The notes beneath the pieces were generated by a model, which was not told the origin of the DNA, did no database searches, and saw only the letters and a program-made list of their open reading frames with translations. Positions 14,273 to 58,446 of a DNA stretch of 64,000 nt are shown piece after piece. The stretch lies in the NCBI GenBank assembly GCA_902626385.1, contig CACOEZ010000005.1:1-64000 (forward strand), read 5' to 3'. Both the position numbers and the translations under genes were made by a program. The first letter of the stretch is position 1. Each line of letters begins with the position of its first letter. Source of the stretch: an uncultured SAR86 cluster bacterium. GTDB lineage: Bacteria > Pseudomonadota > Gammaproteobacteria > Magnimaribacterales > D2472.

Positions 14273-14417
14273 ATAGTTACTCCCCAAATAATTTGTGAAT
14301 ACTAATGTTAAAACAAAAAAAATTAAACACAACAACTAAATATACTAATAGCAATAATAGTTAAAATATAAAATATACTCAAAAAAAAACTTATATAAGT
14401 GAAAATACAAGATATTA

Positions 14418-16516: not shown

Positions 16517-18613
16517 TTAAAAATCATATCTTAAAGAGATGCCAATATTTTTTGGATCACCTTGTCTTCTATACAAAGTATCAACGAAATTTGGAGCCTC
16601 ATTTCCGAAGAAAAAACCTCTAGTAGAGTAATATTCATCAAATAGATTTCTTACCCATATATCTGTTGAAAAATTTGATTTTGTATAGCCTAATGAAAGG
16701 TTTACAAGCTTATAACTTTTAGATTTATTATTATGTGAATCAGAGTAAAAAAAGCTACTCTTCCCATTAATATCCATCTTTAAATAAAAATTATTCTTAA
16801 ATAATAGGTTTGCGCCTAATGAAAAGTTTCTTTCTGGTGCATGAGCTTGTGCTCTATTTTCTAGGTCACTTCTAGATTCCCAATTTTTTATTTTTGTTTT
16901 AAGCAGGCCGAAATTAGCATACAGATTTAGATTATCTCTAACAAAATAATTTGAGCTAATTTCTAATCCATAATTTTCACCCTCTGCTGCATTTTGGGTC
17001 AAATATGAAAAAGTATTTGGGTCAGTTGGATCTACTTGCCTTGAAATTAAAACTTGCTGATCTTCTCTTTTTGAAAAGAAAAAAACTGCTGAATAATTCA
17101 GGATTGAGTTATTGTTATTTGAGCTTAATCCGATTTCGTAGTTAGTCAAAAATTCTGGATCATATATTAAAGAGTCTTTTATTGAATTATCAGTTGCATC
17201 TAAACCAAGATTAAACCCACCTTGTTTATATCCTCGTGCAATTGAAAAATAAATATTTGAATTATCATTATTTTTAATCAGAGAAATTTTTCCTCCATTC
17301 ATGTTGTCAGATGGATTGAATGATTCTTGATTTGAATCATTATATTTTGAGTCCCAATTTTCCCATCTTAATCCAAAAGCTAACTTATAATTTTCTGAAA
17401 GGAAGTAATCAATGTTTCCGAACAATGATAAATTTTCAGCTTCATAATTTCTTGAAACTACTGATTCACTTTCATAAGGGCCGTATGGATCAGATGGATC
17501 ACCATAAATTCCATCATCTCTTGTTACATTTGTTTCTTCTAATTCACTAAAATCAAAACCAAAAACCCACTCAAACGGATTTTTTTGTGAAAAATCTGTA
17601 TTTTTGGACAGAAAACGTATTTCTTGGCTAAAAGTATCCCTTTTTCTGAGTGTTTCAGAAAAATAATCGTAAATATATGGAAAATGTGACTCGGAATTAC
17701 CCCAATCAGCATCGTAACTAAAATTTACATCTGTATTGGTCACACTTGTAAAACTTTGTAGATCAAAATTGTTAAAGTTTTTTGTAATTTTTATTCCATA
17801 AGAGTCTGTTTCTTGCGAATCCATTCCTGGACGATCTGATAAAGTGTTTAAACTGCCATCTATTGTCCATATGTCTGCTGGATCATCCATATCAACTTTT
17901 GAAATAAGAAAATTAATTTCTGTAGTCTCATTAAGATCCCAATTTAATTTATATCGCAATGTCAGCTCGTCTTTTTTAGAAGTGTCTGACTTGTTTAAAA
18001 AAATATTTTTTCTAAAGCCATCTGCATAATCTGTTCTTAATACGAGACGATATTTAAGTTTTTCATTTTTCATAGGGCCGCCAAAAGCGATACCTAAATT
18101 TTGGGTTCCATAATCTCCAAGAGTAATTTCAGAAGTTCCCTCAAATTGATTTGTTGGATCTTTTGTTTTTATATAAATTAATCCTGCTAAGGCATTTGCT
18201 CCTGTTCTCGATCCTTGTGGCCCACGAAAAACTTCAACCTGATCCACATCAAATAAAGTTGCAATTCCACCTTGTCCAGAATAATCAATATCATCTATCA
18301 AAAATCCTACTGAAGAATTTGGCGTGCCTTGATATCCAGATCTTTCCCCTATTCCTCTAATTTGAAAATACCTAGCTCTAGAATCTGAGGCGGCATAATT
18401 TAAATTCGGAACAAGGTAAGAAAGTTGTTGAAAATGTTTTATGGCTTGTGATTTTATTTTTTCTGATTGAATAATAGAAATACTAGAATCTTCATCACTA
18501 ATAGATTTTTCTCTATATTCGCCCTTAACAATTATCTCTTCAATATCATTAGATAAAACTGATAAAGAAAAAATTAAAGGTAATAAAAATAAAATTCTTT
18601 TTCTGATATACAT
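16517..18613 (-). CDS. TonB-dependent outer-membrane receptor, probable thiamin uptake
   Basis: A 698-residue outer-membrane receptor. The ATG at 18613 is chosen over an upstream start because GGAGG precedes it at 18622-18626 and the signal peptide MYIRKRILFLLPLIFSLSVLS then begins the protein. The plug domain follows at about residues 45-160 (VDQVEVFRGPQGSRTGANALAG), then a 22-strand barrel ending in the aromatic C-terminal residues YDF. It is the first gene under a TPP riboswitch, so the substrate is inferred to be thiamin or a thiamin-related compound. Energy would come from TonB-ExbBD, which is not in this window. Confidence 0.93.
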   Translation of the reverse strand: MYIRKRILFLLPLIFSLSVLSNDIEEIIVKGEYREKSISDEDSSISIIQSEKIKSQAIKHFQQLSYLVPNLNYAASDSRARYFQIRGIGERSGYQGTPNSSVGFLIDDIDYSGQGGIATLFDVDQVEVFRGPQGSRTGANALAGLIYIKTKDPTNQFEGTSEITLGDYGTQNLGIAFGGPMKNEKLKYRLVLRTDYADGFRKNIFLNKSDTSKKDELTLRYKLNWDLNETTEINFLISKVDMDDPADIWTIDGSLNTLSDRPGMDSQETDSYGIKITKNFNNFDLQSFTSVTNTDVNFSYDADWGNSESHFPYIYDYFSETLRKRDTFSQEIRFLSKNTDFSQKNPFEWVFGFDFSELEETNVTRDDGIYGDPSDPYGPYESESVVSRNYEAENLSLFGNIDYFLSENYKLAFGLRWENWDSKYNDSNQESFNPSDNMNGGKISLIKNNDNSNIYFSIARGYKQGGFNLGLDATDNSIKDSLIYDPEFLTNYEIGLSSNNNNSILNYSAVFFFSKREDQQVLISRQVDPTDPNTFSYLTQNAAEGENYGLEISSNYFVRDNLNLYANFGLLKTKIKNWESRSDLENRAQAHAPERNFSLGANLLFKNNFYLKMDINGKSSFFYSDSHNNKSKSYKLVNLSLGYTKSNFSTDIWVRNLFDEYYSTRGFFFGNEAPNFVDTLYRRQGDPKNIGISLRYDF

Positions 18614-18697
18614 ATGCAATTCCTCCGCAACTATTGTGTTGATCAGGTTCAAAGAGTTTCTTATGATCTCAGGCAAAATTAGCCACCCCTTTGCATC
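18614..18697 (-). promoter_or_regulatory. TPP riboswitch (THI element)
   Basis: Reading the minus strand, the conserved TPP aptamer blocks appear in order: AAAGGGGTGGC, then CTGAGA (18672-18667), then TTTGAACCTGATC (18653-18641), then TTGCGGAGGA (18630-18621). The closing stem can form from ATGCAA (about 18696-18691) and TTGCAT (18619-18614), so it ends directly beside the start codon with the GGAGG ribosome site inside the fold. That arrangement fits translational repression when TPP is bound. A TATAAT-like -10 lies upstream at 18709-18704; no good -35 was found. Confidence 0.93.
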
Positions 18698-18790
18698 TAT
18701 TTATTATATTAATAAATATTTTATTAATTTGGTAGCAAAGATTTATATTTTAAAATTTAGATTTTTTGAAATTAAATATATAACCCTATA

Positions 18791-48306: not shown

Positions 48307-49302
48307 TTATTTGTAATTAACTTCTTGCGCAAGAAAAACAGCATCTTTTTGAAGAGATCCTAATTTACTCACGTTAATATTATCCTCCTTGAATTCACCC
48401 CATCCTTTTATAGATTCATGCACCTTTGCTCCAATCAAAACTGGATATTCTTTGTTTGCTGATGCATATAAATCCTGAGCTTCGTCTGAAGATAAGTATT
48501 CAAGCAATAAAATAGCATTTTTTTTATTCTCTGAAGTTTTGACAACTCCCGCTCCTGAAATATTCACATGAACGCCTCTATCATTTTGATTTGCCCAAAA
48601 TAAGCTTAAATTGTCATATTGAGGATCATCTAACAATCTTGCAAAGTAGTATGTGTTAACTATTGTCATGCCGCACTGGCCGCTAGAAACTGCTTTTAAA
48701 GCATTTGTATCATTTGAAAAGACATCGGTGGCTAAATTTGATACCCATCCCGAAACAACATCTTTTGTTTTTTCGAATCCGTATGTATCTATCATACTGG
48801 CCATCAAAGATCTGTTATAAACTTTTTTTGATGTCCTTAAACAAAGCTTTCCTTTCCATTTTGGATCCGCTAAATCTTCATAGGATGAAAAATCATCCTC
48901 GCTAAACTGATCATTTGAAAAAACAATAGTTCTAGCTCTTTTGGAAAGTCCAAACCATTGATTATTAGGATCTCTCAAATATGAAGGAATATTATTTTTA
49001 AGCACATCGGAATCAATTGTTTGAAAAATATCTCTTTCAGCTGCTTGCCAAAGCACACCAGCATCAACTGTCATAAAAATATCTGCTGGCGATTTTATAC
49101 CCTCTACATCTATTCTTTCCATCAGTTCTTGTGCATTTCCAGATAAATAATTTACTTTGATTCCGGTTTGTTCCGTAAATTTCTCAATGATAGGCTCAAT
49201 TAGTTGTGGTTGACGTGATGTATAAATTGTTAACTCATTCGATGGCTCATTGGCACACGAAACTATTAAAAATATAGCTATTAAAAAAGATAATTTTTTC
49301 AT
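48307..49302 (-). CDS. Iron(III) ABC transporter substrate-binding protein (FbpA/FutA-like)
   Basis: A 331-residue periplasmic binding protein. The signal peptide with a lipoprotein-type Cys is MKKLSFLIAIFLIVSC. Family landmarks are LTIYTSRQPQLIEPIIEKF, LAQEVN near the end and paired tyrosines in VNTYYFARLL, which in FbpA/FutA bind iron. The permease and ATPase genes are not adjacent in this window, so its partners must be elsewhere. No Fur box could be recognised in the 49 bases upstream. Confidence 0.9.
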   Translation of the reverse strand: MKKLSFLIAIFLIVSCANEPSNELTIYTSRQPQLIEPIIEKFTEQTGIKVNYLSGNAQELMERIDVEGIKSPADIFMTVDAGVLWQAAERDIFQTIDSDVLKNNIPSYLRDPNNQWFGLSKRARTIVFSNDQFSEDDFSSYEDLADPKWKGKLCLRTSKKVYNRSLMASMIDTYGFEKTKDVVSGWVSNLATDVFSNDTNALKAVSSGQCGMTIVNTYYFARLLDDPQYDNLSLFWANQNDRGVHVNISGAGVVKTSENKKNAILLLEYLSSDEAQDLYASANKEYPVLIGAKVHESIKGWGEFKEDNINVSKLGSLQKDAVFLAQEVNYK

Positions 49303-52363: not shown

Positions 52364-52540
52364 AATGACATTCTGGTTCATTTGCTAATGTGCTAATAAA
52401 TTTGAACCGATACTATTAATTAGGTGATTTTCCACTGTCTTTGTTGAGCAATACCTTATAGGGAAGCCTGATCTGACAAGATATTCACCACCTGAACTTT
52501 CGGTTCAGGTATAGCACATGGCGGTGATCTGGTTTGATAG
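52364..52540 (+). ncRNA. ssrS: 6S RNA
   Basis: The 200-base gap between zapA and fau matches the E. coli ssrS position. Sequence blocks shared with E. coli 6S RNA are visible in order: GAACCGATA, TTGTTGAGC, GAAGCCT, TTCACC, a hairpin CCTGAACTTTCGGTTCAGG and GGCGG. The closing stem ATGTGC (near 52387) with GCACAT (near 52513) and weak outer pairing around TCATT and GGTGA fit the long rod that mimics an open promoter. The ends are approximate. It binds the sigma70 holoenzyme in stationary phase. Confidence 0.85.
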
Positions 52541-57660: not shown

Positions 57661-58185
57661 CTAAAGAAGTTTTTCTATATCAGAAATTAGTTCAGCAGAA
57701 TCTGGCTTTACAGAAGATCCATATGTTGAAACAACAGTTCCATCTCTTGATATCAAATACTTATTAAAATTCCAAGAAGGAGTAACGCCACTTTCATTAA
57801 TGAGTTTTTTGTAAAATGGGCTTGCTTTTTTACCCCTTACTTTTGAGGTTGCGAACATAGGAAAATTTACACCATATTCAGTAGAACAAAACTCTGCAAC
57901 GTCCTCTTCAGCAGCATACTCTTGTAAGAAATCTCTTGAAGGAATTCCAAATATTACAAAATCATCACTTTTATAATTGTCATAAAGTGTTTGAAGTGAT
58001 GCATATTGATATGTATAACCACATCTGCTCGCAACATTAACTACGAGAATAACTTTATCTTCGTATTCACAAAGATTGACTTTGTCGCTGGAGTCAAGAA
58101 CACGCATCTCGGTATCAAGCAAATCACTGCAAGCAAAAGCGTTAAATGAAAAAAATGATATAAAAAGGATTAGTAGTTGTTTCAT
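57661..58185 (-). CDS. Glutathione peroxidase-family thiol peroxidase, exported
   Basis: A 174-residue protein with a signal peptide (MKQLLILFISFFSFNAFA) and a thioredoxin-fold peroxidase domain. The peroxidatic Cys55 is in NVASRCGYTYQY; it is cysteine, not selenocysteine. Trp138 and Asn139 of the catalytic set are in SWNFNKYL. The segment that normally reads PxNQFxxQE is IPSRDFLQE here, so the usual catalytic glutamine position (about 85) is aspartate. It should reduce peroxides in the periplasm. It is preceded by 12 bases and a small ORF and shares that ORF's promoter and leader. Confidence 0.9.
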   Translation of the reverse strand: MKQLLILFISFFSFNAFACSDLLDTEMRVLDSSDKVNLCEYEDKVILVVNVASRCGYTYQYASLQTLYDNYKSDDFVIFGIPSRDFLQEYAAEEDVAEFCSTEYGVNFPMFATSKVRGKKASPFYKKLINESGVTPSWNFNKYLISRDGTVVSTYGSSVKPDSAELISDIEKLL

Positions 58186-58197
58186 AAGAGAGTAATT

Positions 58198-58284
58198 TTA
58201 ACTTATCGGCGTAATTGCAGATAGTGAAGTTATAAAGATAGTGACTAAAAAAATTAATTCAATATTATCTTTAAAGTTATCCAT
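58198..58284 (-). CDS. Small ORF: 28-residue hydrophobic peptide ahead of gpx
   Basis: The ATG is at 58284, with AGGAAAGG at 58300-58293 eight bases upstream, a stronger ribosome site than that of gpx. The peptide begins MDNFKDNIELIF and continues as one hydrophobic helix (LVTIFITSLSAI), ending in TPIS. The size and layout fit a small single-pass membrane protein or a leader peptide. The stop is 12 bases before the gpx start, so both lie on one message. No family is known to me. Coding is inferred from ribosome site, position and hydrophobic pattern. Confidence 0.5.
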   Translation of the reverse strand: MDNFKDNIELIFLVTIFITSLSAITPIS

Positions 58285-58303: not shown

Positions 58304-58379
58304 AAAAAGAGATGGAGGGCAGTGCCCTCCATAATTCCAGAGTGTCAGCAAAATTAATAGGGGAGAGGAGTGCTGACAT
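58304..58379 (-). promoter_or_regulatory. Two-hairpin leader with terminator and possible antiterminator upstream of gpx
   Basis: Reading the minus strand from a predicted start near 58379: hairpin 1 is TGTCAGCA (58378-58371) with TGCTGACA (58350-58343) around a C-rich 20-base loop. Hairpin 2 is ATGGAGGGC (58332-58324) with GCCCTCCAT (58320-58312), followed by CTC and five T (58308-58304), a terminator. The loop of hairpin 1 contains CTCTCC (58367-58362), which can pair with GGAGGG (58330-58325) in hairpin 2 and would break the terminator. The parts are visible directly; switching is inference. A small RNA ending at the terminator is an alternative. Confidence 0.55.
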
Positions 58380-58384
58380 TAATT

Positions 58385-58412
58385 ATTATATATATTTATA
58401 ATCTATTATCAA
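58385..58412 (-). promoter_or_regulatory. Near-consensus sigma70 promoter of the gpx leader
   Basis: On the minus strand, TTGATA (58412-58407) and TATAAT (58390-58385) are separated by 16 bases. The -10 is a perfect match and -35 differs in one base. Initiation would fall at about 58379, right at hairpin 1. Confidence 0.7.
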
Positions 58413-58446
58413 TATTATTTATAAAATAAAATGCTTTTTTTTTATG

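Follow-up and report, generated by a model that had tools for sequence, protein, structure and literature searches.

Premature termination of an mRNA leader can yield a small RNA, as it does for SreA and SreB of Listeria and UpsM of Rhodobacter. In the alphaproteobacterial ar14/cuckoo sRNAs (NfeR1, and CcsR1-4 with CcaF1), an ultra-conserved, unpaired, C-rich anti-Shine-Dalgarno motif is borne on variable stems, and the RNAs, which are linked to stress, are often encoded beside a small-protein gene (PMC10746234, PMC10253847). RepG, a trans-acting sRNA of Helicobacter pylori, targets an mRNA by pairing with its G-rich leader, and a C/U-rich loop probably makes the contact (PMC6794450).

Among uncultured lineages of the surface ocean, SAR86 is one of the most abundant, and a literature search for SAR86 with sRNA or Hfq found no paper on its post-transcriptional regulation. 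Comparative sequence analysis now gives the lineage what appears to be a well-supported small RNA, encoded before the glutathione peroxidase gene gpx in a 64-kb stretch of SAR86 DNA, referred to below as the window.

Organization of the gpx locus

The element lies on the minus strand, as do the promoter, the small open reading frame and gpx. As an earlier note on this DNA had claimed, a promoter is present, with TTGATA (58412-58407) and TATAAT (58390-58385) separated by 16 nt and matching 11 of 12 consensus positions; the foot of hairpin 1 is found ~6 nt downstream of the -10 box. The conserved, structured and covarying RNA spans ~76 nt (58304-58379) from its predicted start to its predicted end at the T-run. 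Hairpin 1 (58343-58378), whose pairs covary, is formed by the 8-bp arms UGUCAGCA (58378-58371) and UGCUGACA (58350-58343), which enclose a 20-nt loop (58370-58351) with the C-rich sequence CUCCUCUCCCCUAUU (58356-58370), invariant within the genus and a candidate pairing seed. A 10-nt linker, CUCUGGAAUU (58333-58342), is a candidate anti-terminator strand and leads to an intrinsic terminator (58304-58332), which consists of the 9-bp hairpin AUGGAGGGC-ACU-GCCCUCCAU (58332-58312) and the T-run CUCUUUUU (58311-58304). Both hairpins were thus located as previously described, and a scan of 2.5 kb at the locus returned this one terminator-like site only (58332-58304). The leader has a minimum free energy of -25.9 kcal/mol (z = -5.2), and no shuffled sequence was equally stable.

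The 28-codon reading frame and gpx expected downstream are both present. The former (smORF, MDNFKDNIELIFLVTIFITSLSAITPIS, 58198-58284) starts ~20 nt past the T-run and has no Pfam match; judged by eye from its sequence, the product is probably a single membrane helix. A reading frame of 24-35 aa with a conserved core occurs in all 55 gpx-linked loci. The gpx gene (57661-58185) is backed by the Pfam GSHPx family (E = 3.6e-26), with rpiA beyond it on the opposite strand and a divergent fadB-like gene on the other side. A 25-codon in-frame reading frame through the leader itself (58379-58302) was rejected, since relatives have AAG, TAG or TTG in place of the start codon and their varying loop lengths shift the frame.

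Conservation and covariation

The element is found at 82-95% identity in ~30 of the 34 genomes of the window's genus, where stem 1 and the loop CUCCUCUCCCC(C)UAUU are invariant and the linker ACUCUGGA nearly so. A covariance-model search returned matches in 96 of 107 genomes, representing all ten genera of the window's SAR86 family. Across the family the loop, CUYCUCYCCCC(C)UAU, is much more conserved than its own stem, and its core CUCYCCCC(C)UAU is mostly kept in two further families as well.

The compensatory changes that the earlier note had proposed to look for are seen in both stems. Among 69 members, double changes affect 13 of 16 pairs (91 such cells), and 95.8% of cells are paired compared with 37-55% when the alignment is slid; for stem 1 alone the values are 7 of 8 pairs and 94.3% compared with 5-43%, all of these figures being somewhat inflated by an alignment that was fitted to the structure. 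Clear examples are columns 3-45 (GC 36, AU 18, UA 5) and 9-40 (GC 54, AU 12).

No family in Rfam 15 scored above its gathering threshold for the element. Elsewhere in the window, Rfam models detect a TPP riboswitch (18603-18700, minus strand) and a 6S RNA (52367-52539, plus strand). A search of 369 genomes of the class gave matches confined to the SAR86 order; an exact-motif scan of public genome contigs yielded 58 stretches, all titled SAR86 or unspecified (gamma)proteobacterial, and the same scan of viral contigs gave no match. Because it is present family-wide, with strongly covarying stems, a hyper-conserved loop and no Rfam match, the element is not a chance structure; on this comparative evidence, the sequence before gpx is a real, previously undescribed small RNA found throughout a SAR86 family.

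Another SAR86 family (f4) has the same promoter, C-rich loop (UCUCCUCUCCCCC) and position before gpx, with a different stem (GUCAGUC) and terminator (GGGGCUUCGGCCCC). Small hydrophobic reading frames lie between the RNA and gpx in this family (L139, L161, L162; two each in L161 and L162), and one of these resembles the 28-aa ORF of the window. At the loci read in families f2 and f3, gpx occurs without the RNA. Weak model matches in f2 (L125, L126, L128-L134), together with L140 and L141, were discarded, as they share a generic terminator only. In the f2 genus g14, a hairpin with a CUCUCCCC loop lies between polA and engB, and its homology is uncertain. Four loci of another SAR86 family (L122, L123, L124, L127) have a hairpin CCGUCAGCA-(UYUCUCUCCCCUGAAAA)-UGCUGACGG between convergent polA and engB. 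Gene names such as polA, engB and lnt were read off the protein sequences without a family search.

Gene contexts of the RNA copies

The order fadB, RNA, smORF, gpx, rpiA is seen at 55 of the 69 loci. The remaining 14 are extra copies in three genera, and the gene that follows their terminator is on the opposite strand. Thirteen of them are syntenic and abut the 3' end of a convergent sbcB gene, often downstream of a pseudoazurin gene; one, a third copy, is divergent from an alternative oxidase gene. All 14 retain stem, loop and terminator with no close same-strand gene downstream, and the element is therefore best described as a small RNA and not merely as a leader. A riboswitch or attenuator would always stand in line upstream of the gene it regulates, which does not hold for these 14 of 69 loci. 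What would be expected of a trans-acting sRNA, namely a promoter and terminator of its own and a conserved unpaired seed, is present as far as sequence can tell. Two free-standing copies (L072, L080) have a tRNA gene within ~200 nt. At L068 another long hairpin, GACAGCAGGTT/AACCTGCTGTC, follows ~240 nt beyond the RNA; its loop (UUUCCCCCUGAUUUU) is C-rich and its tail T-rich.

Candidate competitors of the terminator

The earlier note had proposed that CUCUCC in the loop of hairpin 1 competes with the terminator by pairing with GGAGGG in its first arm. Such pairing can be drawn with one G-U pair; forcing it costs 16 kcal/mol, the forced fold having -9.8 kcal/mol compared with -25.9 kcal/mol for the two-hairpin fold. 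This pairing shows no covariation: double changes are absent, and it does not exceed what shuffled sequences give. Distant homologues retain the loop and have lost the GGAGGG arm, and loop-terminator pairing as the switch was rejected for the absent covariation and for this loss.

The linker, CUCUGGAA, is a plausible and better competitor, and nearly all gpx-linked copies have the potential for its pairing with the terminator arm. During elongation it is predicted to pair with the first terminator arm (CUCUG with UGGAG) before the second arm is made. Its mean extent among gpx-linked copies is 6.2 bp, at -3.6 kcal/mol, compared with 4.4 bp and -1.9 kcal/mol for shuffled linkers. Little covariation between linker and arm is possible, because the terminator arm is nearly invariant. 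Free-standing copies have a shortened linker (mean 5.9 nt) and a pairing energy of ~-0.2 kcal/mol; as a single duplication may have given rise to all 13 sbcB copies, this shortening does not amount to many independent losses. The gpx-linked RNA of family f4 has no linker.

A promoter motif shared with pseudoazurin genes

Most RNA copies, gpx-linked or free-standing, have in common a 45-bp promoter motif (TTATAAATA-n-TATTGATAATnnATTATAAATATATATAAT; 58381-58428 on the minus strand of the window) that includes the TTGATA and TATAAT boxes and reaches well past both. It is largely lost in three free-standing copies (L078, L119, L121). All strong matches in the sequence examined belong to RNA copies or lie before pseudoazurin genes or the small ORFs that precede them. 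A pattern search of 14 genomes found 28 sites, compared with 2 for a reversed-pattern control, and apart from two weak sites with three mismatches all of these 28 belong to RNA genes or pseudoazurin operons; in one such operon an alternative oxidase gene lies behind pseudoazurin. Since the motif is shared by RNA genes and pseudoazurin genes, we infer that the RNA, gpx and pseudoazurin are under one common regulator; so tightly defined a motif ties the RNA to both proteins.

Examples include a pseudoazurin/plastocyanin-like gene with the same 45-bp motif (G000:C10:26274-26306, L313) and its orthologues (L308, L309, L310, L300, L301, L316). An alternative oxidase gene lies downstream of the motif-bearing pseudoazurin gene in genome G008. 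In genus g9 (L314, L315) the motif precedes small hydrophobic ORFs just upstream of pseudoazurin, of 60 aa at both loci with an additional one of 57 aa in L314.

Candidate targets and RNA chaperones

Targets were sought in the window and in syntenic stretches. Over the window's 55 start regions, pairing of the loop does not exceed that of permuted loops, so that a general anti-Shine-Dalgarno mimic is not supported. Complements of loop 9-mers do not recur at start sites; nearly all perfect matches are in coding sequences, the recurrent ones being tied to protein motifs, and these were rejected as targets. The best of the 55 start regions, at -12.2 kcal/mol, belongs to an NAD-formate-dehydrogenase-like gene (start 14272), named from its own sequence without a family search. 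Its putative Shine-Dalgarno sequence GGGGAG (14280-14285, minus strand) complements CUCCCC of the loop, and GGGGA is kept in all nine genomes compared. The gene is a weak target candidate, and hypothetical in that it is one among ~40 examined. An iron-type ABC substrate-binding gene (48307-49302, minus strand) has GAGAGG, complementary to CCUCUC of the loop, before its start; only 3 of 13 genomes retain this sequence.

Neither Hfq (PF17209) nor ProQ (PF04352) was detected in any of the 107 genomes of the family, many of them incomplete and 19 at least 90% complete, while both searches were positive for the E. coli control. Dependence of the RNA on either chaperone is thus at odds with the 0 of 107 genomes found for each.

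Proposed mechanism and alternatives

We consider it probable that the element acts in trans as an sRNA, pairing through its C-rich loop and working without Hfq or ProQ, and that the gpx-linked copy is in addition a terminated leader with read-through. A regulatory RNA of ~76 nt would be made from its own promoter and ended at its own intrinsic terminator. Its free loop, the natural contact point and presumed seed, would pair with a small number of mRNAs at G-rich start regions, neither Hfq nor ProQ taking part. Transcription of smORF-gpx would come at least partly from read-through, because the ~20-nt gap between terminator and smORF leaves no room for a promoter; gpx could have a promoter of its own inside the smORF. 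The linker may tune the read-through by pairing with the first arm of the terminator, and the RNA and gpx would be co-induced with pseudoazurin through one redox-, metal- or NO-type regulator. A fuller version, in which the RNA has two jobs, as a linker/terminator switch for read-through into a membrane micropeptide and gpx and as a trans-acting sRNA without Hfq or ProQ, and in which free-standing copies, once duplicated, retained the sRNA role and lost the switch, is put forward tentatively, and its attenuator half is likewise possible but somewhat doubtful.

The earlier note had left a choice between a riboswitch or attenuator and a small RNA with read-through. The small RNA gains from the covarying stems, the conserved loop and the free-standing copies; the riboswitch loses by these same copies, and a competitor of the terminator is plausible, by way of the linker, in gpx-linked copies only. 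Were the element an attenuator acting solely in cis, with terminator and linker controlling smORF-gpx and a short RNA that is itself functionless, the downstream smORF-gpx at 55 of 69 loci and the excess of linker pairing over shuffles would be accounted for. This is nevertheless unlikely: 14 copies without a close same-strand gene still keep stem, loop and terminator, the loop, although the most conserved part, has no role in such a switch, and the RNA of family f4 is gpx-linked yet has no linker. A C-rich loop that titrates or recruits an RNA-binding protein, with no mRNA pairing, would fit a fixed loop on a varying stem, the unconvincing mRNA target set from the window searches and the absence of the usual matchmakers Hfq and ProQ. 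However, similar C-rich loops of known sRNAs pair with Shine-Dalgarno-like sites (PMC10746234), and the start region of the formate dehydrogenase gene is complementary to the loop and conserved, so that we regard this explanation, too, as improbable.

Two hairpins and a terminator followed by ORFs would suit a riboswitch that senses a small molecule, but a single simple hairpin with no Rfam match is a poor fit, and the free-standing copies, which have no gene to control in place, disfavour it strongly enough to make it very improbable. Most likely, then, the element acts on other messages. Intrinsic terminators are common, and an ordinary terminator and spacer kept by descent between fadB and gpx would need no function; this is scarcely credible, being contradicted by the invariant loop, the compensatory changes, the shared promoter and the dispersed copies.

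Comparison with known small RNAs

The sRNA reading favoured here invites comparison with the leader-derived RNAs. As with SreA, SreB and UpsM, the terminated leader is proposed to act in trans, the downstream gene being served by read-through; unlike them, the SAR86 RNA has no known ligand-binding aptamer and has free-standing paralogues. Its duplicated copies offer a natural experiment in the conversion of a leader into a free-standing sRNA.

With the ar14/cuckoo RNAs it shares a fixed, unpaired C-rich motif, a variable stem and a small-ORF neighbour. The motif differs, being CCUCCUCCC in ar14/cuckoo and CUCYCCCC(C)UAU in SAR86, where the loop reads CUCCUCUCCCC (genus g1) or CUYCUCYCCCCCUAU. 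The ar14/cuckoo systems comprise three or four hairpins or sRNAs, several of them bearing the motif, whereas the SAR86 RNA has one C-rich hairpin and a terminator, and the neighbouring protein is a DUF1127 protein in the former and a probable membrane peptide in the latter. Because neither the CCUCCUCCC motif nor the multi-hairpin layout is found, the RNA is not a member of that group. RepG, from an unrelated lineage, pairs through its terminator loop, while the C-rich loop of the SAR86 RNA is in the first hairpin. Helicobacter pylori is not known to have Hfq. The SAR86 RNA provides a test case for sRNA action without both Hfq and ProQ. By analogy, it would act most like the ar14/cuckoo anti-Shine-Dalgarno sRNAs and RepG, and it appears to represent a new RNA family.
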